NCBI GenBank assembly: GCA_949130485.1
Contig: OX422193.1
Coordinates: forward strand, 2,358,371 to 2,422,370
Source of the DNA: Agelas oroides
Taxonomy: Eukaryota; Porifera; Demospongiae; Agelasida; Agelasidae
Direction: 5' to 3'
Length of the DNA stretch: 64,000 nucleotides
In this document: one piece after another, positions 220 to 43,035 of the stretch
Position numbering within the stretch: position 1 is the stretch's first letter
How the letters are laid out: every line of letters begins with the position of its first letter
Translations under genes and position numbers: made by a program
Notes under the pieces: generated by a model
Databases searched by the model: none
Told to the model about the DNA's origin: nothing
The model's input: only the letters and a program-made list of their open reading frames with translations

Positions 220-7014
<6,795 letters not shown>

Positions 7015-7284
7015 ATGTATGTACAACTGACTGCACTATACTTATCTTCATCGTCATCATCATTGCATGACATACCATACAAGCTGTTGTAACCTTACTA
7101 ATTTGATCCAGCATGAAACCTCCATGTAGTTATTACAGTTAAGTGGTGGACTACACTTCCAGTTATGTGGTAGGATCACAAATAACCACTTCAAAATGAC
7201 AATCAAGTTCTTTTCTGGACTGTAAACGTAACTACCATAACCAAGATGGTGAGTCATCATACCATATACCTACTTTCACACTTT

Positions 7285-7660
7285 TAGCGTTTACTAACAA
7301 CCATGGCTTTGGGATATTTGTGAACTCACACTATTCTGGACTCACCTGTATTTTTGGAGCTACATGATGTTCTGGGCGACATGTCAAAACTGGCTAGACT
7401 GCTGCATCAGCAGTGATGGTGCAGTTGAACAAGCAGCTGCATTCTGCAAGAATGCTACATTCAAATGTAGCATTCTTGAGCAACATCACATCAGAAGGCA
7501 TGAGGAGTAACTGCAGTGTTAATAGAGAACACAGTTGAGGTTGCATGACTGCCACATTGATGGACAGGCTACCTGTGAACTGCAGGCAGCTGTACTTAGC
7601 AATAACACAACTGTGGAGATTTTGAACAGATTGCAAACCAATGGCCGAATCACTGTAAGT
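7285..7660 (+). pseudogene. Decayed NLR fragment 1 (LRR part)
   Basis: Stretches resemble the LRR-coding 3' half of the NLR at 19226-22581 at nucleotide level, such as the parts reading GACTGCCACATTGATGGACA and GCTGCATTCTGCAAGAATG. The reading frame is broken by many stops and indels and large parts of the LRR region are missing. It lies in the segmental duplication and matches fragment 2 more closely than the intact gene. It is a dead host gene fragment showing that an NLR once lay next to receptor A. Confidence 0.8.
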
Positions 7661-9718
7661 AGCTAACTTCGAACTATGCATGATATCCAGTTACTGAGAT
7701 GTTTGTACAATAAACTACTTTCAACAGCATGGACTTCATCTTGACAGGTCACAATGACATCCCGTCTTGGTAGCTATATGGCTCAATGGTTTAATATTTT
7801 CTGATGGTGACAACAATAAGAAATTAGTTGATTGTCGACATTGTAAGGATTGTTGTGGTTTGTGCATGTGTTAAAGACAACAAAATTAATGTTTGCAGAT
7901 TGCAAAGAAAGACTGGCTATTGCATCAGTGTGTGGGATGGCCACCATATATCATGTGGCAAGCCTGAGAAAACCCAACACCAACAGCATGCAGTTTGCAG
8001 AACTTACATATAGCTATGACAGTTACTGTAAAGATAGCAAATCCACACTTGCATGACCTATACATATTACAATGACCGAAAATTAACACTTGCACAACCT
8101 ACATATGACAGTCACTATAACGACAACAAATCTACACTTGAAATGTGTGATTCATGATGTTTTCTTTAGGGTGATATGAATTCTGTTGTTTGCTCAGCTC
8201 AGATGGATGATCCACCAATGCAGTTGATCTGAACAGAACCACTGCTGATTGTATTATTTCCCCTGCATGACATTGCAAGGAGCTCCTATGACATGTTTGC
8301 TAATTAGCCCTCTGCAAAAACAAGTTGGTTGATTAACCAAAAGTAGTTACCTTGGTTACATACAAGCTGGAGAGACAGTGGTTATGACAGGTTTACTTTG
8401 GTATGGAAGACTATTAGCATAAAGCAACCTGAGAGGCTGCTGTCCAGTTCATCTTACAACCACAATATACACTGACAACCCTCAGAACATCCTGTGAAGG
8501 AGTCATTACAAATGCACTTCAAAGTTATACAGTAAGGAACTTCCATGCTCTTTGAAAGCAGGTGATTCCCTCACACCTCACAGAATCTGGTAGTTCTGAG
8601 GGCTGCAACCAGGGCAACCAACCAATTTATTTTTGCACATGTGTGCACATATGTGTTATATATAACAAAGTATTTAAACTACAAAGTGTTTCCTTGAGGA
8701 ATTCCAGAGTATGTATCAGGGAGGCACTCCATTACATTACTACAGAGTACATCATGTACATATATCCAACATCAGCTGGTAGTCAGCTCCTATCATTGGA
8801 ACTAGTCATCAGATGCAGAACATACATAGGCATCTTGTATATAACATGCTTCATACATAGCTAGATATATAATTTGTTTTAAAAGTTACTAACCATGCAT
8901 ATCATACATATAACGAGGTAGCGCAGACAAAGTGGAACAATCAGTGAAATATGTACACAACCTACCACGTATATGGGTGTGCCATCCTGTAATTGTAAAC
9001 ACTTGGAGGAAGTGATGACTAGGATTATACACTGGTAAGCTAAAATGTGTATGAGGAATCCACCATTTGAAGTCTGCTAGCTTTGAAATGTTATGATACC
9101 ACCTACATATTATCACATTGACATCACTGTTGATGCTAAGTTAATGGGCAGTGTACATATATAAGGGCTCCAACTAAAAGATATACAAAATTGGATTGAG
9201 GTTAATCCAGTTATCTTGAAACCCATCACTCATCTGGCATACTGGTTATATCAACATTGTAGTGTGCATGAGAAATGACAGACACGCAATCAAGATGTCC
9301 ACACCAGCTGTACTCTAGTTAAGTGCACATACAAGTTGTTTACCTCCACCACAGAGTACAGTATAGAATACCTACATGGACTCACATGACCTTTAAGAAC
9401 CAACATTCAAAGTTCCAATAACCACCCACTAATTCTAATGCTTTGAAGTGTAATATCGGCTATCGTAGATGTATTTGTAAGTGTAACACAAATTAACATA
9501 TTTGCTTTGCTGTGTCCACTTCTGTCTGGCTTCTGCAACCTTCCAGTGCTTCCACAACCTTCCTGTTGTGGAAGCCATGTAGACAGAAACTCCCTGTTGT
9601 GCTCCTAAACACTTCACAGCTGCAAACAAACTGCAAACATATTCTGGTATTTATGTAGTGCAAGTTCAATCAAACCTATATACAAGTTAGAACGAGAGAT
9701 GAAATGTGCTGGCTTACT

Positions 9719-9799
9719 ACATATTTGCAAGGCCCTATAATTGATGGTAAATGTTTGCTGCAAACATTTACCATCAATTTTAGGGCCTTGCAAATATGT
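9719..9799. repeat. Near-perfect 40-bp-arm hairpin
   Basis: Left arm 9719-9758 and right arm 9760-9799 are reverse complements with one mismatch and a one-base spacer. The equivalent place in block copy 2 (near 30983-31025) has only the left arm. It carries no ORF. It may be a local inverted duplication or a tiny fold-back element. Confidence 0.9.
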
Positions 9800-10475
9800 A
9801 TTTTTTATGTCTCAAATTTGTAATCAGGGTGGGTACAATTTTGTTTGGGGTGTTTCTTCAGACTGTGATATTACATCTACATGTGATTAATAACAAGGAA
9901 CCAAATCAAACACTGAAGACTATTTGCCACTCTGCCGACAGAACAGGTAAATACTCATGGACTGGGTATAGCTAAATTGAGCCTAAAATCACAACATAAT
10001 GACTTGCATTGCTCAACTCAGCCCATAATACATGGTGTATGTATGTAATATGCACAACAAGTACTAATTTAGTGATGTCTAAATCCAGAACAGTGCCACG
10101 GTAATAAAGGTAGTAAGAATACAGTATGAGACTAAATACACAGGCAGAATTTATACACTTCTGTATGCTCATGTTAGCTAACACTGTCGGCAAACAGAAT
10201 TGGAGACATGAATTAATACTTATATGTGCGCCAGAGATACTCCAATCTGATTAGTGTACATCTCCGTTCACTCACTCTCTCACAGCATGTATGGTGAATG
10301 CGTGTGTAATGACCTTATAAGGAATTGTTGATGTACGCATTTTATAAGTAGCCTTTGTCAGCATATCAAACAGAAGGCAGTCAGATTGCCTGCTTTGGAA
10401 TCCAAATAGAAAACAACTTAATCAGACTTACCATAAAGATGGATGGGGGGACACGCTTGATGGCAAAAGAGTTTT

Positions 10476-11880
10476 ATTTATGGGTGTCTCAAGCTTGCAA
10501 TCAATGCAATTTTGTTTGATGTGTTTCGGATATTGATTGAAAGCCTCAATAAGAGTAACTTGAAAACACTTTGGCTTTCAGAAGATTGCAAACCATATCC
10601 ATCATTTAGAGTGGAAGACCAGCTTCAATCCCGCCTTTCTTTCTGGTCGTCTGATCATCGACTAGCTCGTTATAAGCATAGAAATATATTAAGAAAAGTA
10701 TTAGAAGGAGCAATGGATCAGACTAGGTTGAGTTATATATCATGACTTAGAGTGTGTTGTACTACTGTCATGTATCACTCAGAGGTTATATACTTAACAA
10801 TAATATTAAGATACAAAGTTCCAAGGACTAGCCTGAGTGTAACTGTACATAATGCTATAGGAACATGCATTGAACATGCTGTTATGTACTGTTGGAAACC
10901 TGTATTACTGGAAATGCATCAGGTTGCAGTAAATAGTTAATTAATGTACATGTACATTTTACACCTGTATTTTTAAAATGGTCAAATAACCAAACTGGAC
11001 CAATCAGAGGGTCACAGTCTTTATAGACACTAGACAGGAAGTGAAATTGATCCAAAATTGCTAGTTACTTGTGCAAGTTATGCAATTTAAACCTGCTCGA
11101 ACTACACAAGGGTGATAGCTGCAACTGCTATTAGATCTTAAAATACTGAATGAAAATTTAATTTCATATACACCTGCAATTAAGTTGAAATTAGTCAGAT
11201 GGCCCCTGCATGAGTGGAATAATACGTATTGCACAAGGATGATCTATTGTATCTAGTTGCAACTTTCTGAATTATTGTGAAGTTGGCTTTTTTAAATTTA
11301 TTTGCAGTACATCTATTCACACACAAGTGCATGTTCACCTCTGTTTGTCTTGATAATGATCAGAGCATTTAATCAAACTGTTGTATAGTTTACTACATAT
11401 TGAGAGCTGGACTTGCACGGAGAAGGTACAAAATTAACTTAAATAATTATGCCTGGAACTGTATGAGAGAAATGCTCAAAGCGGTAGTAGCTGCTTGTTC
11501 CGATATGCCAATAATACCCTGGCAGCAATATGTATGCCAATGAGGTGGTGTGTGTGTATGCTGTGTGTGTGTCTACCTTGTTACCATCACTACTCGAGAA
11601 TAATGTATGTTTAATAATAATTATGATGTGACATTTTGTTGGATTTGATTCACAGTGAATTGAATTTCTTATGATTGTATGCTGCACAAGAATTACATGC
11701 AGTATGTGGAAGTGCATGTGCGTCAGACCTCTTCAAACTCTGCACCCAATGACAACAGTATAACCTGTAAGAGACTTGTATAGCAAGACCCCATAGGAGG
11801 CCAGCTGCAAACTGATTTCAAGAGAAAAATCGGGAGAGAGGCCTGGTAAATGGTGAACTCAGAACGTAATGTGGACTCGG
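10476..11880. other. Intergenic stretch with one doubtful ORF
   Basis: AT-rich. An open frame at 10512-10745 (+) begins with an LRR-like rhythm (FRILIESLNKSNLKTLWLS) but has no neighbouring exon I can join and is not in the duplicated block. It could be an NLR remnant. A (GT)n-rich patch lies near 11545-11575. Nothing else is supported. Confidence 0.4.
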
Positions 11881-14765: not shown

Positions 14766-17502
14766 ATGATATGTGTACATTGTCGTACCATATTTAGCTG
14801 TTTATGTTTGGTTGTTTATGGTGTGAGATTTAGGGGAGGTACAACATAGGGAATGTTTTGGGAGTATTGCAGACGGGATTTTTGAGCCACATGCAGTCCA
14901 ATACATTCTATAATTATGCTTCTGTCAGAAGTAGTCGTTTTGTGGTTTGGCAGTGTGTATAGCACACCTGATGTGAGTACTTTCAGTTCAGGTGTCCTCC
15001 AACTTTCAGTTAGGTTCAAAGGCAGCCAGACACATTGGAAGCCTGTGTAGTACAAGCTGTGTAAACCACATACTAGGAAATTTGTTTGCATGTGGTGTCT
15101 GACTTAAAGAAGTCCCACTGTATACCATCTGGTGGGTTTCAGTTTTTCGTGGAGTGTCAATTTTGTTATTTGAAGTAGTTAATCTACAACTCACAAGATT
15201 TTCCACCCACAAGTGCATACATGTGATTGGCTCTATTCCACTACCCTCATTTTGTTGACAATGATATCAATCCACAGAGACCTGGATCCTCTGTTATATC
15301 CAGTTGTGATTGATAAAGTAGAGAACTGAAGCTGGAAAATACATGCAAGTGAAATACCCAGCTGTGTGCGTAAGTGCATAAGTGCAGGGATCACCTCATT
15401 GTCAAGGTGGAAATCATGACAATCTGGACACAGCACAGTGATACAGGACTGGTGTTATAACACATATATACGTACCTCACCCTGTCTCCCATGTTGGAAG
15501 TAGTGATCAGAGCACACTGGTTCATGATCAGGGCTCGTTCAGCAAGGATTGCTGATTGGCCAGGAGTACCTGAGTGTGTGAGTGTGTACACAACACTATG
15601 TGCAGACAGCTGTACAAGATGTAAGTAGCTACATAGCTTCAAAATGTAAAGAAATAAATTTGCTACAAGAAATCATAAACGTCTTTGCTATCCATGTTTA
15701 CAGATGTGTGGGTTGTCTTGATGGGCAGGCATGATGTGTAGTGTTGGTGGATGAGTTTGATTGTGTCTAGAAAAGAGTTTTAGCTTCTACATGGCTTGTT
15801 TATGTTGGAAAGGTTTCCTGTATATCTCTGGTGTGCACTCTCATAAAGAGTTTTAGCTTGCTGTTTTCAGGATTTATGATGTCATCTTCAATATAGCCTT
15901 TTTATCACCTTCCTTTTTGCAGTGACTAGATTTTGCAAACTTCTAAAGGTATTCTATAAGTCATGTAGCCGTCTGTCTTGTGACACCTGTGAAGCATATA
16001 GCCTTTTTCTGCATCGATTTGATGTATTGTGCATTTGAGTACGTAATAAAGAGTTTGAATGATGTGGTTAGTGTCAGTGAAGACTGCTCTGGGAAACCTG
16101 TAAATCCGATCTCTACTACTGTAAACAATGTATCATCATAATTTATGGATTTCCGTGCAACTTTAACAATATCTTTACCTCTGCCAGGTGTAGTCATGTC
16201 CTCTTGGAGCGAGTTGTAACATGCATACTGAGATTGTGTCACTAATGGGTTGGTACTTATCACCTGTTCAGTATATATCAACGTGATCATTAACACCACA
16301 GGTAATGAGACCATTTCAATCTTGTGGCAATATAACATGAATGCCACCTCACATTTAATGCTGTCTACTAAAGTTTGCAGTGCATTTAAAAAGGTGCTGA
16401 AGTTCAATTAAGAAACCAACATTACATTAGTTAAGTATTTAGCTTACTACTGGTATTAAAAACATGTTTTCTTTACTATAAAGAATTTTTAACTTCTAGC
16501 TCCTTACAAATTCCATGTGCCAGTATGTGATTTTTTAGCATGCTTTGTGGTTTGTTTTAAAAGTTACTTTTACGAGGCTAACTGCACCCCAAGTGGAAAG
16601 AAAATGCTGACTCGAATGCAGGTGAACAAACCAGTTTGTCTTGTCTATATGGTGACATGAATGCGGGTGGACAAACCAGCTTGGTCTGTCTGTTTACAAA
16701 TTATTAAAGACCTTGTGTGGAAGCCTAGCTACATTAGGGCAATTGCGAAACAGGGAATTAAATCCAGTTGATCAGCTGGTCTAGGTACACAATCCAGCTC
16801 GAGCTCTTACCAAAAAGCATAGCCATTGCATGTAGAATGATGCTGAATGCCTGCTCAGGATGCCTGTGGGGTGATAATTGTAGCCACATAGAGGCGAGGT
16901 GATAAGCCAGCCAAATTCTATATACTGACTGCTGAGCAGAAGATTGATGTGCTACTGTATCCGTCTAAGTTGTGTAGTAGCTAAGAACACCACACAAAGC
17001 CTTTGAGAGACATTGGTTGGTATTCTAAAGAAGCGCTGTTGCATAAAAAGTGCTGTGGACACATAGGATGTGCTGCAGTGTAGCAAGGCAGTAGCTAAGT
17101 GCGGACTTCACCAAACTTTCAAAGTGACTCGTAGCTCCGTGTAGCTGTGCTGGATTGATCATCTGCTACCAAAAATGTGTAGCTAATGGATGTAGCTTGT
17201 GAATGGTGTACATACCTTAGTCTTTGTACATGGCATGAGCTGCAAGTTATGGGCAATCTTGGTGTGGTCACTGAAAGGACAACACTTTTGATCATGATTC
17301 AGGTTTGCAGTGGAAATGGGATATGCCCAGGTTCTGCAAATACAAGTACCTTCATGTTAAAATAGCTAGCTTGGTCATTGTGAAATCCTGTGTGACTGTA
17401 GGTCACTTGTGGGTGGCAAATATTTCACCTTACGTACTTGTCATAGATTAGTTCTCAGCCTTACCACTTGAGCCATAGATACTTCAGCTTCCAACTGCCT
17501 AA
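14766..17502. other. Long region without a supported gene
   Basis: AT-rich with scattered short frames. On the minus strand 15477-15603 looks exon-like (acceptor TTGTACAG, residues SAHSVVYTLTHSGTPGQ and on, donor GTGAGG or GTACGT), but no partner exon reads cleanly. A 148-codon minus frame at 15961-16407 has no recognised domain. No repeat structure was resolved. Confidence 0.35.
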
Positions 17503-17511
17503 GTAGGCCCA

Positions 17512-17787
17512 CGAGTTTATAACAGTAAGGGTGTGCAACTCCCATATGGTTTCTATACCCGCCATCTGGATAGGATGACGTATACATCTGCAGTGAATAT
17601 GCTTAGCTGTGAAACACAGCAATAAAGAGGTGGGCTTTCACATAGCTAATGTACACTAACACATAGAATGGCTTCATGTTAAGTACCTACTAAGCATATT
17701 CACTGCAGATTGCCTACGTCATCCTATCCAGATGGCGGGTGTAGAAACCATATGGGAGTTGCACACTCTTACTGTTATAAACTCTTG
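17512..17787. mobile_element. MITE with 9-bp target duplication and 93-bp TIRs
   Basis: The left arm (17513-17605) and right arm (about 17690-17784) are inverted copies with few mismatches, including CATATGGTTTCTA and CGCCATCTGGATAGGATGAC. GTAGGCCCA flanks both sides (17503-17511, 17788-17796). The middle, about 85 bp, carries no ORF. Mutator-like by target-site length. Confidence 0.88.
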
Positions 17788-18332
17788 GTAGGCCCAGTTA
17801 GCCAGGGAGAAAAAGGCTGAAATAGTAGGCATGTGCAAGCACTCATATGGTTTTTCTCAACATTAATTTATTCATTCAATCATTTATTACTATACATTTC
17901 TTTCTTTCCACCTGGGGTGTAATTAGTGTGCTGGATGTCAAGCTGACTATGCATGGAACCTTGCATCTAAGACATCTAAATTATTGAATGTTCACATTCA
18001 CCCCCTTTCTCTAGATGCCAATCAGAATTGAAGCAAAACACAACAAGCATCTACTGAAGACAACTGTGACTGTGTTACATCTACCAGCACTGCTACCTGT
18101 GTCATGTGACTCCTGGCCACACTGTGCCCTAGCAACTAAACACTCTATCACCCTACAGTTGCATGTTCACCTATGTCACATGGCTTTCAGCTACACATAT
18201 GCATCCTGGTGCTGCCATCCGCTACCAGCAATGGTAATCCAGAAAAGTGTAACAAGGTCAAACATCAGGTGTCCATCATGTACCTCCTCCCACTCTGGTG
18301 TCCATCATGTTCACACCATCCCGTGTCTCAGT
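17788..18332 (+). other. NLR 5' region with upstream open frame
   Basis: Between the MITE ending at 17787 and the preferred NLR start. A pyrimidine tract and CTAG (to 18014) look like a 3' splice site just before ATG 18015, so one or more 5' exons may lie upstream. The frame from 18015 to 18332 is open for 106 codons, but the residues (many His, Ser, Cys and Thr, no domain) look like translated leader. No TATA box or initiator could be assigned. Confidence 0.4.
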
Positions 18333-21300
18333 ATGTCATCTGGTGTGGAATGGAGGGTGGTGATGGTTCTGTTGTTGCTGCTTAGTGGTGACATAGAGAA
18401 AAACCCAGGGCCTATGTTAAGTGTTGCTGACTTGCATATCTTAATGAAAGAGTTGAACAATGTGCGTGCGAATTGGAACAATATTGGCTTGCAGCTTGGA
18501 GTAAATATTGGCACACTGGATGCCATCAAGAAACAGTACAATGATCCCTCAGATTGTCTTAGAGAAACTCTCACAACATGGCTGAAATCCTCACACCCTA
18601 CATGGAGTAACATTGCGGATGCCCTACGCGTTGTTGGTGAAATGAGGCTGGCTGCAGACTTGGAATGCAAGTACTGCTCAACGCAAGACATTGGCACTGC
18701 TGCCACCCACCATCTTGCACCGCCAGTACCAGCTGTGCCTCCATCACAAGCTCATACCTGGATGACTTCACCACCTCAGTCAAATTCCCTTACACGACCA
18801 CCAGTCTTTGGATTCCCCTATTTTATGCCACCACAGTCACACCCCTTTTATCCCTCATCTTGGCCTGCCCCTTACTACTATACTCCACCAACCAGTTACC
18901 CACCTTTTCTACCTCCAGCCATATCTGGGGCAGTTAGCACTGCTACACCTGCCAGTATCCATTCCATGTTCACACAGCTGTGTCAAGTTACACCTGGCCC
19001 TATTCAATCTGGACCTGTCCCACCCACACTAGCACCTGCCCAGCCTACTACCTCCCAGTTTCCAACCTCTGATGCTCTACAGGCTGTGACTGTATCTGAA
19101 CAACCAGAACAACCAACAGTAATAGCAGGTATGCAGTTTCAGCACTAGATATACCATCTATTTCTGCATACTAAACACTAGCATAAAGAATCTTTGTGCA
19201 CATGTCTATTTCCACACCTCTGTAGGATGGTCAGACATTGAATTCCAGGAGTACTTGGCCAATACACCTGTTCCTAAACGTATTCAGATCATAGAGGATA
19301 AGTTTTATCAACTTGTGAGTAAAGTTCAATATGGACTAGTTCAAGAGAATATTCCACTGCGGAATCTCAAGCACTGCATCACACTGCTTCCAGCTTCCAT
19401 CAGATACCAACACAAGGCTTTCATTGAAGAAAAGGTAAAAGCTATCGCCAATTCCGAAAGCATAGAGGAGATATTTGGAGTGGTCAACTTATACTGGGAC
19501 TTTCTCAATTACACACTGCTAGAAAACATTGTGAGCAAGTTTGGAAATAATGACACAAAAGCTGCTATGACTGAATATGTCACGGAGCTGGTTGCGTTTC
19601 GCAAAGTCACAAAACTGTCAGATTTTATCACACATTGGCCATGCACAGGAAGAGTGCCACCCGATATGTCCAATCTTGTGACCAAGATAAAAGATAAAAT
19701 GGGGAAAGATTGGTCTAATTGCACTCTGCAAGATGTGGAACACTTCAAAATAATGCTCACACAGAAGCTTTTGCTTCCGTCTTTTGGAGTGATACTTAGA
19801 GAAGCAGAACAGGGTTGTATCTCCCTCACCTGGCTGATTCCTACAACGATTGTGAAGTATCTTTCCAAAGATATCCACGATATCAAGCCAGAGTGGTTTA
19901 AGGAACACCACATTGAGAGACTGGCTATTGATGGACAAGACCTGTACAGCTCAGCGACATTCAAATATGGCATGTTCCTCAAAGAACTTTACACAACCCA
20001 GGGTCCTCCTCCAACCCTTATTGGCTCCAGTTCTCCACCCCCAAAATTGCTCCCCTTTAAGCTAGCCAAGATCGAGAAAGAACAAACTGATTTACATTCA
20101 GATGAGTTCACAAAATGGTACCTAAGAGGGGATATAGATGATGTTGGTTCACATGGTACCATTTACAAGAAGTCACCAATCAGATTTGAAGACATTGGCA
20201 AACTCTCAATTGATTCCCAACAAAGGTTAATTTTCATTGAAGGTGCCCCTGGGGTGGGAAAGACCACATTCAGTTGGGAGTTCTGCAGTAAATGGGGCAG
20301 GGGTGGAATCTTGCAGGAGTATTCCTTGCTCCTCCTCCTCCCACTGCGAGATAACAGCCTAAAGGAGGCAACGACTCTCTCAGATCTCTTCCAACACACA
20401 AACCAGGAGCTCCAGCAAGCAGTGGTTCGGGAAGTTACAGGCAATCAAGGCCAGGGTGTGGCCATCTGGTTGGAGGCATGGGATGAACTAGATCATGAAC
20501 TACGAGAGAAGGCCTCTGTGTTTCTCAATCTTATCCATGGCAGAACTCTACCCCTTGCAACTGTTTTTATCACTAGCAGACCCGGGGCCAGTGAGCCACT
20601 CAGAATGAAGTGTGGACAGCGTATCTTACAGCATGTTGAAATCCTGTCTTCTGCAAAAGACCAGATTGCACATTACATCAGCAAGGCTGAAGCTGAAGAT
20701 CAGTCTAGTTCATTTGCTTCTAAATTTACTGACTACCTCTCTTCTAATCCTGTAGTCAGAGCAGCCATGTACACACCTGTTACAGCAAAGATGTCAGCAG
20801 ATGTGTTCATGCGGAGCCATTGCACTGAGTCACCCCCTCCCACCACTATGTCTGAACTATTTACTGCCTTTACCCTCACGACCCTGGTAGACCACCTCTC
20901 AACACACCCAGTGCATTGTAAACAGCAGTTGAATGTTGCTACCTTTGATGACCTTCCCACAGATGTGTATAAACAATTTCAAGGCCTTTGCAAAATGGCC
21001 TGCGAAGGTATACTAAACAAGCAACAATTGGTTTTCTCTGCAACCAACCTTCCAACTGAGTTTACTCCCCTTGGCTTAATGCAAGAGGTCCCTCAACTGT
21101 ACGCTAAGGGCGGTACTATTTCCTATCATTTCATCCACTTGACACTACAGGAGTATTTAGCTGCTGTCTACATATCACAACTTCCTGTGCATGATCAAAC
21201 ACAACTGGTACAAAAATATGTAGATTGTGACCATTTCAAAATCACACTTAGGTTCCTGGCTGGACTTACAAAATTAGTAAACATACCACCTCGAGGGTTG

Positions 21301-22581
21301 GTGCTGAGTCATGATACCAAACTTGCCTATTTTCACTTTTTGTTTGAAGCAAAGGACATTTTAGTGACTACCAGAATTTTGGGTTCAGATGAGATGGTTG
21401 TCAAGTCGCACTACTCCTGGACTCCCTTGGACTTCTATGTGACAGGGCATGCTATCTCTCATTCCAACTGCATCTGGAGACTGTACTTCTCCAACTCTTT
21501 CATTGATGATGAGAAGTTTCAACTGTTTTACCAGGGATACACGACCTCAGGGGAAACTGACTGCAGTTACCACATTCCATTTGCCGACTTCAGTAGGAAT
21601 AACATCACCTCCAAAAGCATACAGTTATTTGTAAGTACCCCTTTGCAAATTCTACAGGATATGACAGTGCTATTGCTTCATCACAACAAACTGGATAATA
21701 ATGCATGTGACCTGCTGGCCAAGGCAGTACCACCAATGTCTAGGTTAGAGGAGCTTTGGCTCAGCTACAACCCGATAGAAAGTGGTGGTGCTGTGGAGTT
21801 AATTAGAGCACTTTGTGGCAGTGGACTGAAACAGCTGTGGTTAGTCAGCACTGGGATTGGATTGCCAGATTGTGAAGCCCTGTGTGAATTACTGAAAGCA
21901 AGTGACTCACTTCGAAACCTTCATGTTGACTGCAACAGCTTGTCCTCAGAGAGTGTAGCCAGTATCATTGCTGGACTTAGTCACAACAGTTGTTTGGAAG
22001 ACCTAGACATTTCAAACTCCCACTTTAGCATGGCAAATGTGCATAGTTTAGCATTTCAGGTTCTGAATGACAAGTCAAAGCACACACTGACATTGAGGTT
22101 AGAAGATTGCCACATCAGCAGTGAAGGTGCAATTACATTGGGGGCTGCACTCTGCAAGAACACTACACTCAAATACTTGAACCTGAGCAAAAATCCCATT
22201 GGAAAGTATTTGAAGGGAGTAACTGCAGTAGCAAAAATGTTCGTAGAGAATGAAACACTGAAAGAGTTGAGGTTACATGACTGCCAGATCAGTGGACAGG
22301 GTGCTTGTGAACTGGCAGCTGCACTCAGTAAGAACACAACTCTGGAGATTCTGAACCTAGATTGCAACCTGATCGGTGCAGAAGGAACCTTCTCAATATC
22401 AGACATGCTGCAATACAATACATCATTGATAGAACTTCACCTGTGTGATGACTCAGTTGGGGAAGAGGGTGTTCACCAGCTCATTAACAAGCTTAAACAC
22501 AACCAGACATTAAGGAAACTGCGGCTACCAGAGAAGTATAAGTCAGTTCCCAGTGACCACAGAATTACTTGGTATGACTGA
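18333..22581 (+). CDS. NLR-type receptor: 2A peptide, Death-like, NACHT, LRR
   Basis: Intracellular immune-type receptor of the NLR (STAND ATPase) class. Exon 1 runs to 19128 (donor GTATGC, phase 1); exon 2 is 19226-22581, ending TGA. The frame is already open at ATG 18015, directly after a possible acceptor (TTTCTCTAG), but that ATG has T at -3. ATG 18333 (A at -3) and ATG 18363 (G at -3 and +4) put the 2A peptide at the N-terminus, as in known NLR cases, so I prefer 18333. Order: hydrophobic leader and DIEKNPGP (18363-18413), Death-like helical domain (about 18420-18690), Pro/Tyr/Ser-rich linker (to 19128), a conserved-looking helical region with a WDFLNYTLLE stretch (about 19280-19960), NACHT with Walker A GAPGVGKTT (20242-20268), Walker B WLEAWDELD (about 20467-20493) and sensor FITSRP (about 20567), then RI-type LRRs (about 21700-22530). 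From 18333 the product is about 1383 residues. Decayed relatives lie at 7285-7660 and 26240-27095. Confidence 0.88.
18363..18413 (+). other. 2A ribosome-skipping peptide at NLR N-terminus
   Basis: The translation MVLLLLLSGDIEKNPGP matches the 2A core D(V/I)ExNPGP exactly and is preceded by a leucine-rich stretch. In 2A families the ribosome fails to form the Gly-Pro bond, here before Pro at 18411, releasing the leader and continuing with PMLSVADL, the start of the Death-like domain. Established knowledge: sea-urchin NLR-type genes carry N-terminal 2A sequences that double as signal peptides when skipping fails. Activity of this copy is inferred from the motif. Confidence 0.9.
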
Positions 22582-23064
22582 TACTACAACCAAGGAATCT
22601 ATTTAGTTTCCGTGAGCAGGATGTTACAAACAGTCTGTTTTCACCCATTCCATGAAAGTATCTCATGCAATTCTGATTTCAAATAGCACCATCTCTCAAG
22701 TAGCAACATTTTGATGATTGATTATTTATCACATTACATGTGCTTCAGATTTTTTTTTACTGTGCAGTTATTTCTATTCATGCAGGAGGTACCTCCACTA
22801 GCTTGTCTTTTGGGCTCTAACTGTATCATGCTGAGCAGGCCCATAGCCAGACTGAGGGGGGTTAGCTAAATGGATGTCTGATGTGTATGTATGACTAGGG
22901 GCGTCTGGGGGCATGCTCCCCCAGGCAATTTTAGAAATTAGATGCTCTGATATTCCTTCTGAGGCCATTTTGGGAAGGAAGCAGAGCTGCAGTAGCTACA
23001 TAGCTCGCAGAGCTTTGCCTCCAATTTTTGTTACAACTAACTGCGCTATATACATAATTATCAT
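22582..23064. repeat. NLR 3' flank with dispersed repeat
   Basis: After the NLR stop comes AT-rich flank, then from about 22838 a dispersed repeat (AGGCCCATAGCCAGACT..., GGGGGCATGCTCCCCCAGG, TTCTGAGGCCATTTTGGG). The same family occurs inverted at about 38790-38956 in an intron of receptor B and partly near 55840-55920. Class not determined. A short (ATC)n run ends at 23075. Confidence 0.65.
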
Positions 23065-23268
23065 CATCATCATCTTTACCATACAAGCTGTTGTAACCAT
23101 ACGCTGTATTTCAAGTCACTTGGAACATAACACTTAAAAAAATAAAACGTAAAACCGTGGGAAAGGAATTTGCCGGAACCACTTACCTATGCGGTGGCGG
23201 CGCGCGCGTTGCTGTTTGTCTTGCACATGCTAGCTAGCTACCAATCATTGTGTTGTGCGAAGTCTATC

Positions 23269-24238
23269 ATGGGCGAGCCTGGACGACGCAAAAGTTACAG
23301 TGAAGATTTGCGCTGGAGAATTGTCTACCAGAGACACCTGATGGGACTGAAGTACAGGGAAATTTCACAGAATTTGACGGTTTCAGTCTCCACTGTTGCG
23401 AGAGTTGTGGACAGGTTTGAACGCACCAGAGAAGTAACTCGGAGGGTAAAACCTGCTACTGAACGTATACTTCATGAACACGATGTGTTCGTTTTGATGC
23501 AGATAGTTTTGGAAAGACCCAGCACGGGCTACAGCGAGCGCTTGCACAGACTACAGGAATGTTTGTCTCTGAGGCTACAATCTGTGTATAGGACGATTAA
23601 ACGCTTTGGATTTTCCCGGAAGAAAATGAAGTATACTGCTCTGCAGAGATCAGATCTAATTAGAGCTGAATATCAGGCAGAAATAGCGATTTATGATCCA
23701 AGTATGTTAGTGTTTGTAGATGAATCAGGCACTGACCAACGCAATGCTACACGACACTTTGGATATGCTTTAAGAGGCTACAGTCCACGATCCTTTATAA
23801 TAAGTTCTTTAGTAGAGGAAAAAGACTATCTGCTATTGCTGCCCTCAGTGTTTCTAAACTGTTGTGTTATAAGTTGCATGAACAAAATGTGGATGGTGAT
23901 ACTTTCTACCTATTTGTTCAGAGAACCCTCCTGCCGACACTGCTGCCATTTAATGGATATAATCCGAACTGAGTGGTCGTAATGGATAATTGCAGTATCC
24001 ACCATGTACCTGAGGTGATTGAACTGATTCGTAGTGTTGGAACTATTGTTGTGTTCCTTCCCCCATACAGTCCTGATTTTACACCTATTGAGGAGATGTT
24101 TAGCAAAATCAAGAACTTTGTTCGGCAGCACAAGACTGTATTTGAGGTAGCCCCCAAAGAAGTACTTATAGTGCTGCTTTTGATTTGGTGACTGAACAGG
24201 ACTGCATTGGCTGGTATAAAGACTGTGGATATGTGTAG
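23269..24238 (+). pseudogene. Tc1/IS630-type DDE transposase, inactivated
   Basis: Begins MGEPGRRKSYSEDLRWRIVY, then a helix-turn-helix (YREISQNLTVSVSTVARVV), a linker with ERPSTGYSERLHRL, and the catalytic core: VDESG (first Asp), VMDNCSIHH (second Asp) and PPYSPDFTPIEE (Glu) with 34 residues between Asp and Glu, a DD34E arrangement. It acts by cut-and-paste at TA. The frame shifts near 23815, meets an in-frame TGA near 23975 and shifts again near 24165; the original C-terminus reads CGYV then TAG at 24236-24238. No intron needed. Source of the TIRs seen in the MITE at 25761-25845. Confidence 0.88.
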
Positions 24239-24342
24239 CTTTTATTGGCATGCAATTATTTTGTGTACATACTGGGTGGGACTTGTTGGGATACATGATA
24301 ACCTACAAAAGTCAGTTTATATAAATGCACTATAAGTAAAAG

Positions 24343-25611
24343 CTACAGGCTGTGAAGTTTCTCCAAAATGGGGGCCTTCTGGCTGTTGTACTCCTCCAGG
24401 CTAATAGCGCCAGCTTCAAGTAGCTCATGAAGTTGTTTGATCTGGGTAATCAACTGCCCTCTCAGTTGTACCTGTTTGCCTGGAGATACATCTACACATG
24501 TAGTGGTGGTAGATTGAGAGGCAATTGATGCATGTGTAGGTGACTGAGTTCCGGAATGTGGTTTCAAAGCCCTAACAATACCCTCTGCAATTCCACTTAA
24601 AGCATCAACAACTTCCAAGTGTTTTTCACACCTCTTTTTACCACCACCAAACATAGGGACATCAGGAGGCATACTTAGTCTATCAAGCTAGACCCTCTCT
24701 CACCCTCCAGAAACGTGAGAGAGGGTCTAGCAGATGTTATTAGTATGCATGAGATGCTGACCAATCAGATCCTACTGTTCCATTTTGAGACAGTAGCAAC
24801 ACCTTGGCTTCAGTATGTAAGACTAATTACTGGGTGCAGTTTTAAGGTTGCAAATTAAACAAGCTGTGAACTATGAATACTAATAACATCTGCTAGACCA
24901 TCTCTCACCTTTCTTCTCACTTTTCTGGAGGGTGAGAGATGGTCTAGCTTGATAGACTAGAGGCATACTGTAATCTTTATGGGTCCCTATCTGCAACATG
25001 TTAGCCCATAGACGCAACTGTGCAGGTGTGTATTTGTCAGCATGTTTTTCTTTCAATTTCAGGTGAATCTCTCCAACCTCCTCTTGTATTGCTGATCGTT
25101 TACTGTTGCATGTATCTTGCCTAGATTTCTTTTTAGGTGGCTCAACAGAGTCAGTATTGTCCAGTTCTTCACATCTACCATCACACCACAGTTGTATCTC
25201 TTGGGCTTCAGCATACTGGGAATACATGGTATCCATATCATTCTCATTGATAAGGAATATTTTGCTATTACCACGCCCCTTTTGATAATAGCCAAGAGAA
25301 AAGTTATCCGATTCTGGAACAACCATTGAGAATTCCTCCTTTATACATGACCGAAGCTCCCCCGGAAATTGAAACCGACTTTCAGACATAAACTTTTTCA
25401 TTTCAAAAAGTGACTTTCTTTTGGGGTTTATTACTCTTAGGAAGTATACATACTTCTTGCCCCGCTGACTTGATGCGGGCTGCGGATGTGCTAGATGTGG
25501 TCCTTGCACACTTCCAGAAGTTACAAGGGAAACACCATAGTTGTAGTAGCTGTACTGCTGTGAATCGCCGCTGGTAGATCCACGTGGCCCTCCATACCAG
25601 TACGGCTCCAT
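24343..25611 (-). pseudogene. Uncharacterised ORF interrupted by a MITE
   Basis: Minus-strand frame from ATG at 25611 (MEPYWYGGPRG) to the stop at 24343, split by an inserted MITE at 24676-24959. The first part has a Gly/Tyr/Gln-rich N-terminus, a compact region (KKYVYFLRVINPKRKSLF to EIQLWCDGR), a basic nuclear-type patch PPKKKSR and a motif KYTPAQLRLWANMLQIGTHK. The second part continues PPDVPMFGGGKKR and ends in a helical segment (LHELLEAGAISLEEYNSQK). The KYTxxQLRLWAxM pattern is familiar from uncharacterised cnidarian and sponge proteins; I know of no function. It lies between Tc1-type ends, so it may be an accessory gene of that element or a trapped host gene. Outside the insertion the frame is open. 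Confidence 0.65.
24676..24959. mobile_element. MITE inside the minus-strand ORF
   Basis: Starts TAGTCTATCAAGCTAGACC and ends with its inverted copy, with a further inverted CTCTCACCCTCCAGAAA segment inside. GAGGCATACT flanks both sides (24666-24675, 24960-24969), giving a 9-10 bp duplication. No ORF. It introduces a stop after about 24 extra codons in the host frame. Confidence 0.88.
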
Positions 25612-25663
25612 AGTGACCTATATATCCAGTCTATAGACAGTAGCACAACGGAAGACTGGGTAG

Positions 25664-25942
25664 CAAGTTGTGATCCTACCACATATCTGGAAGTGTAGTC
25701 CACCGCTAAACTGTAATAACTACATGGAAGTTTCATGCTGGATCTATTCAAATTATAGTACACTGCATTTCAAGTCACTGGGAACACGGCGTGTAAAAAG
25801 TAAAACGTAAAACGCGCCGTGTTCCCAGTGACTTGAAATGCAGTGTACTATAATTTGAATAGATCCAGCATGAAACTTCCATGTAGTTATTACAGTTTAG
25901 CTGTGGACTACACTTCCAGATATGTGGTAGGATCACAACTTG
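25664..25942. repeat. 279-bp near-perfect palindrome
   Basis: Arms of about 139 bp centred on 25803. The outer 95 bp of each arm is the receptor-downstream sequence also seen at 7103-7178. The inner part is the Tc1-type MITE at 25761-25845. Hence flank and transposon end are inverted together. Mismatches are rare. Confidence 0.9.
25761..25845. mobile_element. 85-bp Tc1-type MITE
   Basis: CACTGCATTTCAAGTCACTG at both ends, inverted, arms about 33 bp, TA on each side, and a short A-rich middle. The TIR matches the left end of the transposase-bearing element at 23102, so that transposase family could have mobilised it. Confidence 0.8.
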
Positions 25943-26239
25943 AGTTCAATGGGACCGAAACCCGTAGTCATGCGATGACCAGAAAGGGTACTCCCCTGAA
26001 GACCAGTGTTTTTTGAGCACATCTCCCAAAAAACAATAGCTCACTTTGCCACAACTGCCCCACCCATTTGAGCCATAAATGCCCCACCCAGGCCATTTAA
26101 GCCATAAATGCCCCATCCCCATATCCCATTATGTTTTAACTTCACACTTTGTGTTTGCATGAAAATTTTTACATAATGAACATCGATGTGCCAGCTGGTG
26201 TTAGTGCTCCCCCACTTGACACACAACTTTGTTTAAAGC

Positions 26240-27095
26240 ATTTACTAACAACCATGGCTTTGGGTTCAGATAAGATGGTTGTCAACTTGCACTATTCCTC
26301 ACCTGGACTTTTGTCACAGGCCGGCATGGATTCAGGTACTATACCTTGTATGACAACTTCAGAAACAATTAAATTACTTGCAAATGCATAAAGTCATTTG
26401 TAAATGTACTGAAATTTTGAGGCCCCATGTGAACCACTGGCAGCAAGTGACTCACTTCCAAACCTTCACAATGACTGCAACAACTTGTCCTCAGAGAGTG
26501 CAGCCCAACATCATCACTGAACTCAGTCACAATTAACAGACTTTGACTGACCTGGACCTGGATATGTCAAACTCTAACTTCAGCACTGCAAGTGTTGATA
26601 CTTTTGTACATGATGCTCTGGGTGACATGTCAAAACTGGCTACAAGACTGCTACAGCAGCGATGGTGCAGTTGAACTAGCAGCTGCATTCTGCAAGAATG
26701 CTACATTCAAATGTAGCAGTTGTGAGCAACATCACATCAGAAAGCATGAGGAATAACTGCACTGTTAATAGAGAACACATGCAGTTGAGGTTGCAAGACT
26801 GCCACATTGATGGACAGGGTATACTTGTGAACTGCAGGCAGCTGTACTCAGTAATAATAGTTGTGGAGATTTGAACATAGATTGCAAACCCATTAGTGTG
26901 AAGAGAGCCTCCTCAATGTCAGACAAGCTGCAACACAAGCACATCACTAAGGAACTCCACCTGTGTGTAAACTCAGTCAGGGAAGAAGGGGCTTGCCATC
27001 TCACTAACAGGCTAAAACACAACCGCCACTGAGAGTCTATGGCTGCCAGAGAAGTATACCAATAACCAGTGACCATAGAAATTACATGAGATTGG
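26240..27095 (+). pseudogene. Decayed NLR fragment 2 (LRR part and 3' end)
   Basis: Follows the NLR coding sequence from the equivalent of about 21370 to the stop, with gaps. Recognisable pieces match the NLR at AGTGACTCACTTC, TTGTCCTCAGAGAGTG, GACTGCCAGATCAGTGGACA, TCAGACATGCTGCAATACAA and CAGAGAAGTATAAGTCAG. Stops and frameshifts are frequent. It retains more of the 3' end than fragment 1. Another short LRR-like stretch near 27260-27345 (SCPALEQLRLNSS) may belong to it. Confidence 0.85.
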
Positions 27096-27109
27096 TAGTA
27101 CAATTATGT

Positions 27110-28257
27110 ATACAATCATTTTGTGTTGAATTTGTTGTGATTGCCTACAAAAGCACACAGGTATATATTGCATTGTAGCTACCTGTTGGAAGCTGAAATT
27201 CGACAAACATTCTCTGACTGTTAAAAGTATAGGTCCAACAAAATTTCCCGAGTGCTTTGCATGAATAGCCTGACCATCCTCAGCTGCCCTGCCTTAGAGC
27301 AGCTGCGATTGAACTCCAGTTTCCTAGACACAAGTCACAAGACACAAGTGTGAAGATCATTGACCACGACCGTTGCAGCCAAGAGTGAGCTCAAGTATAG
27401 TGAGAAAATCAGTATCACTGTTGCTTGCATTTTACCATATAAAGAATGCTGTAGGTATAAGGAATACAAAATTTGCTTAGATAGATACACTCAGAACTAG
27501 CTATGCGTACAGTTGCATTAGGTTGGTACATAACATTTCCATTTTGTTCCGAGCTCATGCACAAGAACTATTGACCACATGCTGTTATGGCCAAACTATG
27601 CATGATATCTAGTTACTGAGATGTTTGTACAATGAATTACTTTCAACAGCATGGACTTAGGTCACAATGACACCCCATCTTAATTGGTAGTTATATGGCT
27701 CAATGGTTATAAATATTTTCTGATGGTGACAACGGTAAGAACTTAGTTGATTGTCGTCATTGTAAGGATTGTTGACATGCACAAACCACAACTTGTGGTT
27801 TGTGCATGTTTGCAGATTGCAAAGAAAGACTGGCTATTGCATCAGTGTGTGGGATGGCCTCCATATACATTTGGCAAGCCTGAGAAAACTCAACACCAAC
27901 AGCATGCAGTTTGCACAACCTACGTAGCTACGACCATCATGGCTTCACTACTCTCCACCCCTTGAGGGCTTCTAGACCAAACCCCACATATTAATAGGGG
28001 GGCCCCCAACCTAACCACAGACTGAATATCAAAGCTGTTGCGATTAAGGATAGCAAATCCACAATTGCATGACCTATACATATTACAGTGACAGAAAATT
28101 AACACCAAGAAACAATGCGCGGGCGTCATTTTTGGTACACCAGGTACCGCGTACCTCCGCTATAGTCTTGCGGTATCGCCAAATGTTTACGCAGTTTTTC
28201 CTCCGCGTTTGAGCGTCCGAATATACCTGTCGTCCGATGATTGCTAACTTACTCTAC
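27110..28257. other. Non-coding part of duplication copy 2
   Basis: From about 27595 this follows 7680-8110 of block copy 1. 27110-27590 has no clear counterpart there apart from the LRR-like scrap near 27260. No gene supported. Confidence 0.6.
27776..27808. repeat. Perfect 16-bp-arm hairpin
   Basis: CATGCACAAACCACAA, one C, then its exact reverse complement. The matching position in block copy 1 (near 7850-7870) has only the second arm, so the inverted arm was gained in copy 2 or lost in copy 1. Confidence 0.9.
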
Positions 28258-28993
28258 ATGATGGTAGCCAGCTCAGCTATCATTGGAATAACCATCTTCT
28301 ATATAATATGCTTCATACATAGCTAGATATATAATTTTGTTGTAAAGGTAACCATGCATATCATGGCGTACGGTAGTACGCCATATGTAGGGATGACCCC
28401 GAAAAAAAATGGCGGCCACATTCAAAGTGCACAAATGACACGCTCGAAATGTCCGCGTTAGATAAGTCAACGGCCTCCATGAGCCATATCAGACATTATC
28501 GAGTGCTTCCATGGGCAACAGGATCGTTAAATTTGCTGGAAAGCATCGCTAAGTACCTGACAGTCAAGTCGCTAAAAAAGGCAAATCGTCTATCTTCTGA
28601 CTTCTTCTTCTTCTTCTTCTTCTTTTGCTCACCACGATAGCACGACAACGGCTGAAGCTATTACAACGATTCAAACGCGAAAGATCAGCATAAATTACTG
28701 GGTATTGTACCCACCACTCATCGTTCTCAAAGAAAGAAATCGAATTAATCGGCGATTCTCAGGTAACCCCACGCTTATGCTTGCTGCTATACGCCATTTT
28801 GTTAGAATAGAATATTCATAGCGATTACGTCAACAGAAGTTCAACAGCTACAGCACGTGAAGTTGGCATGCAGCTGCGGTTATTCTACTTCCGTAGAGAA
28901 CTTGACGATCGATTGATTCCCAAACGATTGCATATGTTGCTACTTTCATACAGCAGTTGACGTACTTGTGCTGGATTTGACAAGGAACGCAGT

Positions 28994-29155
28994 ATGCGTA
29001 ACGTCCACAAGAAACGGGCGCGGGATAAGCAGAACTATCTGCGAAACAAAGAAAGCAAAAGGCAAGCGTCCCGTAACAAGTACTGGAAGAACCCGGAAAA
29101 ACACTCTTACTCTCCAAGGGTTCCTTTACCACAGTTATGCCTTACCTCTTTATGA
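28994..29155 (+). CDS. Short basic ORF, transposon-associated type
   Basis: ATG 28994 to TGA 29153-29155, 53 codons. The residues are very basic with the repeat-like pattern KRARDKQNYLRNKES and KRQASRNKYWKNPEKH. Such RxxYxxNPEK repeats occur in N-terminal parts of proteins tied to large invertebrate transposons. It may be a remnant exon. A second possible exon start is ATG 28449 (MSALDKSTASMSHIRHYRVL). No splice chain could be confirmed. Confidence 0.3.
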   Translation: MRNVHKKRARDKQNYLRNKESKRQASRNKYWKNPEKHSYSPRVPLPQLCLTSL

Positions 29156-29506
29156 CCTATGTACCTGCCACCCACCATACACAACCTACACACACCTGCC
29201 CACAATGTATAACCAGCTATAGAAACTGTTCCTTGGACAACACACAACATACAGTGTTACAACCCTGTCATACAACAGAACAGGTAGACAGTCATGTATA
29301 TACCACAGTGCCTTAGAACAACCACTCACACACACATGCACATACCCAATTAGACAACAGTTACACCCATGATTCCATTGTCAAGTGGATAAGTGCAAAC
29401 AGCTAACATCCTCCAGAAATCCATCAACATCAACAATAAACTACATAACAAGTCATTTCACTTGGGGTGTGGTTACACAACAACAAAAAAAAAAACAACA
29501 GAAACA

Positions 29507-30180
29507 AGTCACAAAAAAGTTTGCCAAACGCAAACAAGCACATGTAGGGATGAAATCCTCAAAAACCAACCAAACAAGACAGGAACGACACCACAATACT
29601 TTTACACCATCCCTACATCTTGTGCCATTTTGCCACCTGTACACAACACAAAACCCTCTACATTTGTACTTATTAGCCCACACCAACCACAAACAAACAT
29701 AGTACTTCACTCCATTCAACTATCTCACAAAATAACCCATCCTTCACAAAGCATTACAAAATTACCACTACTCACTTCACAGCCACCTGTATACAAGACA
29801 ACCCATATCTATCATGCTAAACAGGCATAAAACTTAACAACATAATGCACATTCCAACATAACACACACACTCACCACTCCTCACTCACTCCACACCTTC
29901 TACACACAACTTGGACCATACCTGCTACACTCAGTAGCAACCACCAACAACACAACATACTCACTATGCACAACACACCCATGCCACACCCTTCCATCTA
30001 CAAGACAACCCTCTTCTACACACAACTAAAAAACAAATACAAACACAGTTTTGGCAAAATGGCACAAGATGTAGGGATGGTGTAAAAGTATTGTGGTGTC
30101 GTTCCCGTCTTGTTTGGTTGGTTTTTGAGGATTTCATCCCTACATGTGCTTGTTTGCGTTTGGCAAACTTTTTTGTGACT
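29507..30180. mobile_element. Long-TIR MITE (129-bp arms)
   Basis: Left arm 29507-29635 (AGTCACAAAAAAGTTTGCC...) and right arm 30052-30180 are near-perfect inverted copies, each with two GTAGGGATG-type motifs. The 415-bp middle is A/C-rich on the plus strand. It has no transposase. No target duplication was identified. Confidence 0.88.
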
Positions 30181-31302
30181 TTCATACATATAACCAGGTA
30201 GCGCAGACAAAGTGGAACAATCAGTGAAATATGTACACAACCTCCCACGTATATGGGTGTGCCATCCTGTAATTGTAAACACTTGGAGGAAGTGATGACT
30301 AGGATTATACACTGGTAGGCTAAAATGTGTATGAGGAATCCACCGTTTGAAATCTGCTATCTTATGATACCACCTACATACTATCACATTAACATCACTG
30401 TTGATGCTAAGTTAATGGGCAGTGTACATATATAAGGGCTCCAACTAAAAGGGCTCCAACTAAAAGATATACAATGAGGTTTATCCAGTTATCTTGAAAC
30501 CCATCACTCATCTGGCATACTGGCTATATAAACATTGTAGTGTGCATGAGAAATGACAGACACGCAATCAAGATGTTCACACCAGCTGTACTCTAGTTAA
30601 GTGCACGTACAAGTTGTTTACCTCCACCACAGAGTACAGTATAGAATACCTACATGGATTCACATGACCTTTAAGAACCAACATTCAATGGTATCAATAA
30701 CCACCCACTAATTCTAATGCTTAGAAGTGAAGTATCGTCTATCATAGACGTATTTGTAAGTGTAACATGCAATTGCTGTGTCCACTTCTGTCTGGCTTCT
30801 GCAACCTTCCAGTGCTTCCACAACCTTCCTGTTGTGGAGCCAGACAGAAACTTCCTGTTGTACTCCTAAACACTTCACAGCATAAAAATCTTCAAAAACA
30901 TTCTAATATTTATGTAGTGCAAGTTCAACCAAACCTATATTATACAAGTTAGAACGGGAGATGAAATGTGGTAGCTTAATACATATTTGCAAGCCCCTAA
31001 AATTGATGGTAAATGTTTGCTGCATATGCATTTTTATGTCTCAAATTTGTAATCAGGGTGGGTACAATTTTGTTTGAGGTGTTTCTTCAGACTGTGATAT
31101 TACATCTACATGTGATTAACAACAAGGAACCAAATCAAACACTGACTATTCTGCCACTCTGCTGACACCTAGAACAGGCACGTATATACTCATGGACTGG
31201 GTATAGCTAAATTGAGCCTAAAATCACAACGTAATGATTGCATTGCTCATTGCTTGCAACTCTGCCAATAATACAACATAGTACTATAATTTAGTGATGT
31301 CT

Positions 31303-32040
31303 AAATCCAAGCCATGTAATGAAGGTGATAAGAATGCAGTATGAGACTAAATACACAGGCAGAGTTTATACACTTTAATTTAATATGCTCATGTTGTGCT
31401 AACGCTGTTGGCAAATAGAATTGGAGACGTCACTCTATGTACGCCAGAGATACTCCAATCTGATTGGACTCAGAGTGTACCTCTCTGTTCACTCACTCTC
31501 TCAAAGCATGTATGGTGAATACTTGTGTAATCACCTTATAAGGAATTCTTGACGTATACATTTTATAAGTAGCTTTTGTCAGCATATCAAACAGAAGGCA
31601 GTCAGATTGCCTGCTTTGGAATCCAAATAGAAAACAACATAATCAGACTTACCATAAAAATGGATGGGGGGAACACTCTTGAAATCCAAAACAGTGTAAT
31701 GAAGGTGATAAGAATGCAGTAGGAGACTAAATAGACATGTAGGCAGAGTTCACACACTTTTGTATGCTCATGTCATGCTAACACTGTTGGCAAATAGAAT
31801 TGGAGACACCACTCAACAACGCAGGAACTTTCTGATTTCATCTCTTTGTTCACTCATATACATTTGGAATCGCCTTAAAAGGAATTGTTCATGTGTTTTT
31901 TTTTGAAGATATAGCTGTTGTCAGTATCATTGAATGGAAGGAAGCCAGATTGCCTGCCTTGGAATCCTTATAGAAGACAACTTACCATAAATGTGCATGG
32001 GAGGGAACACCCTTGATACCAAAAGAATTTAATTATGATG
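31303..32040. repeat. Tandem direct duplication of about 360-380 bp
   Basis: 31303-31680 and 31683-32040 share AAATCCAA, GTAATGAAGGTGATAAGAATGC, GAGACTAAAT, GGCAAATAGAATTGGAGAC and GGAATCC landmarks in order. Block copy 1 (10080-10475) has a single unit. It ends about 170 bp before the start codon of receptor B and so may form part of its upstream region. Confidence 0.75.
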
Positions 32041-32211: not shown

Positions 32212-42757
<10,546 letters not shown>

Positions 42758-43035
42758 ACTACATGCATGGACAACTTGCACGCCACTTGTATTATTATCA
42801 TGCATATATCGTCACAAATGCATACTATTATTGTACAAACTGTCAGAGCTGTACTAAAATTTGTCAACAATAGGTCCAGCATGAAACTTGCTTACATATT
42901 GATACTACAGTTAAAGTGGCCATTACACTTTCACCTATTGAGAACATTTTGTGGCTTCAACTACCTAAATTTTGCACTTAGCGTTGATATCTTGGGTTGA
43001 ATTAGTAATGCAGCAATACAGCCTGACAATATGCA
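42758..43035. other. 3' flank of receptor B
   Basis: Diverged counterpart of 7015-7170 (shared GTCCAGCATGAAAC and ACTACAGTTAA). The NLR-fragment block that follows receptor A is absent; an Academ-like element begins at 43040. Confidence 0.6.

Follow-up and report, generated by a model that had tools for sequence, protein, structure and literature searches.

A predicted StopGo (2A) leader at the N-terminus of a Death-NACHT-LRR receptor gene of the sponge Agelas oroides

What does a short hydrophobic leader ending in NPGP do at the start of an innate immune receptor gene? The question is raised by a stretch of 64,000 bases of Agelas DNA (the window; 41.8% G+C). In its six frames there is a single NPGP, at 18402-18413 on the + strand, and this terminates the leader MSSGVEWRVVMVLLLLLSGDIEKNPGP, the translation of 18333-18413. 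The initial annotation described an exact 2A core after a hydrophobic leader and ahead of a Death-like domain. We find the same arrangement, with DIEKNPGP at 18390-18413 and a Pfam Death domain seven residues downstream. The leader had been given there as 17 residues, which is too short, as the annotation's own start coordinate of 18333 gives 27; the translation of 18363-18413 is MVLLLLLSGDIEKNPGP. From ATG 18333 the in-frame translation around NPGP reads MSSGVEWRVVMVLLLLLSGDIEKNPGPMLSVADLH... We are confident, from the sequence, that a functional StopGo (2A) element makes up the N-terminal leader of a Death-NACHT-LRR receptor gene.

The gene is composed of two coding exons, 18333-19128 and 19226-22581, that are joined by a predicted intron and encode a product of 1383 residues. 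Pfam scans were run on each exon separately. Death, NACHT and LRR_6 all exceed their curated cut-offs, and all three are present in the one gene. Its parts are:

18333-19128, + strand: coding exon 1, with leader, Death domain and Pro-rich linker (open frame and in-frame splice)
18432-18662, + strand: Death domain (residues 34-110, with Met 18333 as residue 1), Pfam PF00531, E 2.9e-7
19129-19225, + strand: predicted intron of 97 bases, GT...AG and frame-keeping; a few alternative GT-AG pairs preserve the frame too
19226-22581, + strand: coding exon 2, with a region lacking assignment, NACHT domain, leucine-rich repeats and a stop codon ending at 22581
20224-20688, + strand: NACHT domain, Pfam PF05729, E 3.1e-15, with PDB matches to NLRP3 and NLRP1
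21670-22539, + strand: leucine-rich repeats, Pfam LRR_6, E 7.9e-11, the extent being taken from the match to ribonuclease inhibitor

The Walker A motif, or P-loop, is intact (GAPGVGKT, 20242-20265, residue 605), and the best 60 of 82 PDB matches of the receptor include NLRP3, NLRP1 and ribonuclease inhibitors. PDB matches to the Death domain are weak, the first being a phage DNA activator (E 0.0048), followed by FADD death domains (E at least 0.0055). About 290 residues ahead of NACHT (19228-20103) have no Pfam match, and the region from the start of exon 2 to NACHT is helical in a single-sequence fold of low confidence (mean pLDDT 46). With the splice as predicted, the locus is an intact-looking innate immune receptor gene of the Death-NACHT-LRR type (NLRD).

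Around its start we distinguish the following elements:

18015-18332, + strand: upstream extension of the same frame without stops, composition score -0.29, probably non-coding
18333-18413, + strand: N-terminal leader of 27 residues by translation, Met 18333 being the most likely start
18357-18383, + strand: hydrophobic core VVMVLLLLL, a possible signal h-region (9-residue Kyte-Doolittle mean 3.72)
18372-18389, + strand: LLLLSG hexamer of a StopGo upstream motif class (match to the motif in PMC12846837)
18390-18413, + strand: StopGo/2A core DIEKNPGP, containing the unique NPGP
18408-18410 and 18411-18413, + strand: Gly and Pro between which the StopGo break is predicted

Counted from 18333, a start that rests on weak composition tests, DIEKNPGP forms residues 20-27. 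The core conforms to the rule (D/G/C/N)(V/I)ExNPGP given for nearly 10,000 viral StopGo sequences in PMC12846837 (2026). Four major groups of upstream hexamer are reported there, one of them LLLLSG-like, with 28% of sequences unclassified. By eye, LLLLSG-DIEKNPGP agrees exactly with that published class of upstream motif, followed by the core. The L-rich classes end in (A/S/C)G and prefer D at p12 and S at p15. The Agelas leader follows them at p11 (G) and p12 (D). At p15 it departs from them with K for S, which argues against StopGo activity, although K is overall one of the favoured residues there (PMC12846837). Four of the six motif classes, including one that is L-rich, were assayed in reticulocyte lysate, and gave from about 92.7% to almost 100% separation (PMC12846837). 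Length also counts against the element, since the native FMDV sequence is fully active only at a length above 30 residues (PMC12846837) and 26 precede the Pro here. In a sea urchin leader, mutation at Leu positions 13 and 14 or the change R11A substantially lowers activity (PMC4981915). The Agelas leader has Leu at 13 and 14, in keeping with StopGo function, but Leu also at position 11, where the urchin leader has Arg. What favours the StopGo reading is the occurrence of the exact LLLLSG and core in an NLR that has a P-loop, on a leader of 27 residues compared with 26 in the urchin.

A match of this kind is not expected by chance. Calculated from six-frame residue frequencies, D[VI]ExNPGP should occur 4.8e-5 times per window. 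In 200 first-order Markov resamplings of the window NPGP arose at a mean of 0.4 per resample, and D.E.NPGP did not occur. The longer pattern LLLL[ASC]GD[VI]ExNPGP, composed after the match was seen, has an expectation of 6e-11 per window.

From the sequence we infer a course of events in which the splice, the start codon, skipping and how efficient it is, and what becomes of the unskipped form are all predictions. LLLLSG-DIEKNPG would occupy the exit tunnel of the ribosome during translation of the first 26 residues. The Gly-Pro bond would be left unmade, freeing a peptide of 26 residues while this is still within the ribosome, and on resumption of translation a cytosolic receptor of 1357 residues would be made, with the N-terminus Pro-Met-Leu-Ser. 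A minority of ribosomes would make the bond, giving a receptor of 1383 residues that retains the hydrophobic leader. With a start at 18333 this unskipped minority could pass into the secretory pathway. Bond skipping at 18408-18413 is very likely. With the start at 18333 it is quite possible that skipping would be partial rather than full, because the Pro is preceded by 26 residues instead of the more than 30 native residues of the fully active FMDV sequence.

The skipped and unskipped products might then be targeted differently, as the initial annotation proposed, skipped chains being cytosolic and unskipped chains using the leader as a signal, so that receptor would become exocytic in meaningful amounts. 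This builds on the StopGo reading, and we regard it as possible, with the balance leaning somewhat against it. The skip is decided before a chain of 26 residues has emerged from the exit tunnel, and hence before contact with SRP. Only unskipped chains should therefore be targetable, which suits dual targeting. Only a start at 18333 (or 18363) is compatible with a signal-sequence reading. Read from 18333, the leader is shaped like a signal, with an n-region ending in Arg, a hydrophobic core of nine residues and a polar end, and the hydrophobicity of its core is unmatched by any 27-residue window in the remaining protein. The comparison with the urchin leader SpNLR2A6 points both ways. Taking the best nine residues, hydropathy is higher in Agelas (VVMVLLLLL, 3.72; SpNLR2A6, 3.31). 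With 11 residues the order is reversed (2.94 for Agelas, 3.19 for SpNLR2A6), and the uncharged stretch of Agelas is 11 residues long compared with 13. Moreover, the leucine run is part of the StopGo motif, which alone accounts for it, so by itself it is no evidence for a signal peptide. The rest of the receptor gives no hint of the secretory route: N-glycosylation sequons are in little excess (10 found, 7.9 expected), and by hydropathy (best 19-residue mean 1.30) no membrane span follows the leader.

The initial annotation invoked sea urchin NLR proteins as the precedent for two fates, in agreement with PMC4981915. In Strongylocentrotus purpuratus a 2A-like sequence is reported at or near the N-terminus of about 35% of NLR proteins (85 of 241); the 26-residue N-terminal form was found in 14 of 87 NCBI entries, 12 of these 14 having predicted signal sequences (PMC4981915). 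The tested leader, similar in design to that of Agelas, gave about 80% skipping in vitro by a qualitative estimate, and did both things in mammalian and plant cells. A skip-disabled version sent its product to the exocytic route, clearly so in the skip-dead mutant. With the wild-type leader, however, most of the reporter was cytosolic and the extracellular signal in plants was very faint (PMC4981915).

A signal role of the leader depends on the start codon. There are in-frame ATGs at 18015, 18180, 18231, 18333 and 18363, and we think that translation probably begins at 18333. If instead it began at 18231, 18180 or 18015, or in an exon joined at 18014, StopGo would split the receptor from a preceding polypeptide (60, 77, 132 or more residues), in the manner of a viral polyprotein, and there would be no ordinary N-terminal signal; from 18231, for example, the hydrophobic run would lie more than 40 residues in. 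We consider an upstream start unlikely, even though it has several attractions. The frame lacks stops back to 18015, as would about 3% of random stretches of this length. Of the 2183 + strand YAGs, just 3 have 14 or more pyrimidines out of 15, and the acceptor-like site at 18014 is among them. Around ATG 18231 there is G at both -3 and +4, and longer sequence ahead of the core would be favourable to StopGo efficiency. Against this, the composition of 18015-18332 is unlike that of average protein: its score of -0.29 is reached or surpassed by 98% of a null set of 3000 stretches containing no more than one stop. The test is a weak one, as segments of the gene itself score -0.07 to 0.05, values that the null distribution (mean -0.06, SD 0.12) also covers. 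The two remaining frames score -0.26 and -0.25, so that the stretch is odd in all three. Over 40-codon windows, again a weak test, the score climbs from -0.31 (start 18255) to 0.02 (start 18315), and in the Pro-rich linker it drops back to about -0.16. A codon-usage model trained on the gene was non-discriminating (held-out gene segments -0.11 to 0.05, null mean -0.04, 18015-18332 -0.11). Acidic residues make up just 2 of 106 in 18015-18332, and G is not enriched at codon position 1 (0.17, compared with 0.25 in exon 1 and 0.27 in exon 2). The weak composition tests favour a start at 18333, and 18015-18332 is probably non-coding.

Translation mainly from ATG 18414, right after the NPGP codons, would leave the leader of little weight. 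It could result from leaky scanning, a downstream transcription start or a splice at the AG ending at 18385. A Met does follow NPGP immediately, and the leucine codons resemble a pyrimidine tract ahead of that AG (11 of 15). We nevertheless find this very improbable. The ATG is in poor context, with C at -3, as many as 156 of the 2183 + strand YAGs are equally or more pyrimidine-rich, and an exact StopGo motif would be unlikely to persist in an unused leader. It is just as improbable that the match is an inactive fossil or a chance resemblance: chimeric StopGo sequences are frequently inactive (PMC12846837), but the chance expectation of the core is minute and it is placed where an otherwise open NLR frame begins.

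The preferred reading is a StopGo leader that starts at 18333 and heads the NLR. No relative with an intact 5' end, from which conservation might be judged, was found in viral_contigs, genome_contigs or the NLR relics within the window. Searching with six peptide patterns for close relatives of exon 2 gave 3 pattern matches in viral_contigs and 71 in genome_contigs, neither collection being intended for animal genomes, and none in either was confirmed. The pattern DIExNPGP matches eight loci of viral_contigs, two of which (L007 and L008) have identical local sequence. By eye none of the eight has an LLLLSG-like upstream hexamer, and we take them to be chance matches. The leader might conceivably be of viral or retrotransposon origin; of the 23 ORFs in 15,000-26,000, Pfam scans covered those of the NLR and the ones at 23146 and 24880, and detected no reverse transcriptase in these. 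Rfam (gathering threshold) and tRNA scans gave no matches, nor did two scans with a repeat taken from the region upstream of the NLR.

Two NLR relics in the window, at 7361-7642 and 26414-27088, are decayed and consist of C-terminal LRR parts only; the latter and 21869-22571 of the intact gene share 71% identity. They sit in one duplicated block (7361-10478 and 26607-31682, three aligned pieces). Another duplicated block is colinear between 224-7028 and 35588-42776, in nine aligned pieces of 76-89% identity. It contains an SRCR gene, with SRCR above cut-off at 2566-3060 and Ig matches below cut-off at 3450-4058; in the second copy (35588-42776) there was no Pfam match in the two ORFs scanned. 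This SRCR gene, together with the architecture of the receptor and its one short intron, is suggestive of a demosponge. The inverted repeats at 17495-17805, upstream of the NLR, and at 25664-25942, with 131-base arms that are 98% complementary, look like small non-autonomous transposons. Between the NLR and the relic, at 23146-23982, lies a transposase-like ORF with HTH_23 above cut-off and a Sleeping Beauty HTH model below it. On the - strand, 44169-49874 is an uninterrupted ORF of 1901 residues. It carries DUF6589 (E 1.1e-20) and a low-complexity repeat built of R, E and D, and has a match to the CXC domain just under cut-off. The - strand ORF at 62415-62960 resembles the C-terminal end of the reverse transcriptase of a non-LTR retrotransposon; Pfam gave only a weak sub-cut-off match to an unrelated family.

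In the literature searched, of which coverage was partial, we found no report of StopGo in sponge NLRs. A 2025 survey by Rao et al., reportedly a systematic one of eukaryotic and viral 2A sequences, may include cases. One candidate report of NPGP in a sponge (PMC9925728) was discarded, the 'NPGP' in it being the enzyme name NPGPx. An N-terminal StopGo leader on an NLR is an arrangement already known from sea urchins, to which the Agelas gene, as predicted, adds another case. A second animal lineage with StopGo at the start of an NLR would make the urchin case a recurrent control of immune receptors and not a curiosity, and why immune receptors use StopGo would become testable by comparison of species. 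One may go further and suppose that, in a sponge-type animal far from echinoderms, StopGo leaders of NLRs set the share of receptor that is cytosolic or secretory, that this is ancient in animals or has evolved repeatedly, and that the 27-residue leader is tuned to incomplete skipping; we offer this as a rather doubtful conjecture.

Comparison may be made with three known systems. StopGo is rare in cellular genes (PMC12846837). The L-rich viral sequences (MEME motifs 2 and 6) have the same upstream hexamer and core as the Agelas leader, but they come from viral ORFs no shorter than 1,500 bases and lie between virus proteins (PMC12846837), whereas the Agelas element belongs to a cellular gene and is found at its start or close to it. 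In the demosponge Dysidea avara there are 126 NACHT+LRR genes, 25 of them of the Death type, and the Death-NACHT-LRR order of its NLRD is common to the Agelas receptor. Some D. avara NLRs are reported to have transmembrane domains, unlike the Agelas receptor, which by hydropathy has no downstream span; the main text of the paper on D. avara makes no mention of NPGP, StopGo, 2A-like sequences or 2A peptides, nor of skipping or recoding (PMC12909245).

The closest parallel is with the SpNLR2A leaders of the sea urchin (Roulston et al. 2016, PMC4981915), whose host is probably of a different phylum. In both, a StopGo core follows a hydrophobic run, in 26 residues in the urchin and, with the predicted start at 18333, 27 in Agelas, ahead of Death, NACHT and LRR. 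Aligned from the C-terminal Pro, SpNLR2A6 and the Agelas leader have in common the ending SGD-[VI]-E-x-NPGP and Leu at positions 13-14. They differ in the upstream hexamer, LLMRSG in SpNLR2A6 and LLLLSG in Agelas, position 11 being Arg in the one and Leu in the other. Unlike SpNLR2A, the predicted Agelas leader has Glu and Arg ahead of the hydrophobic run.
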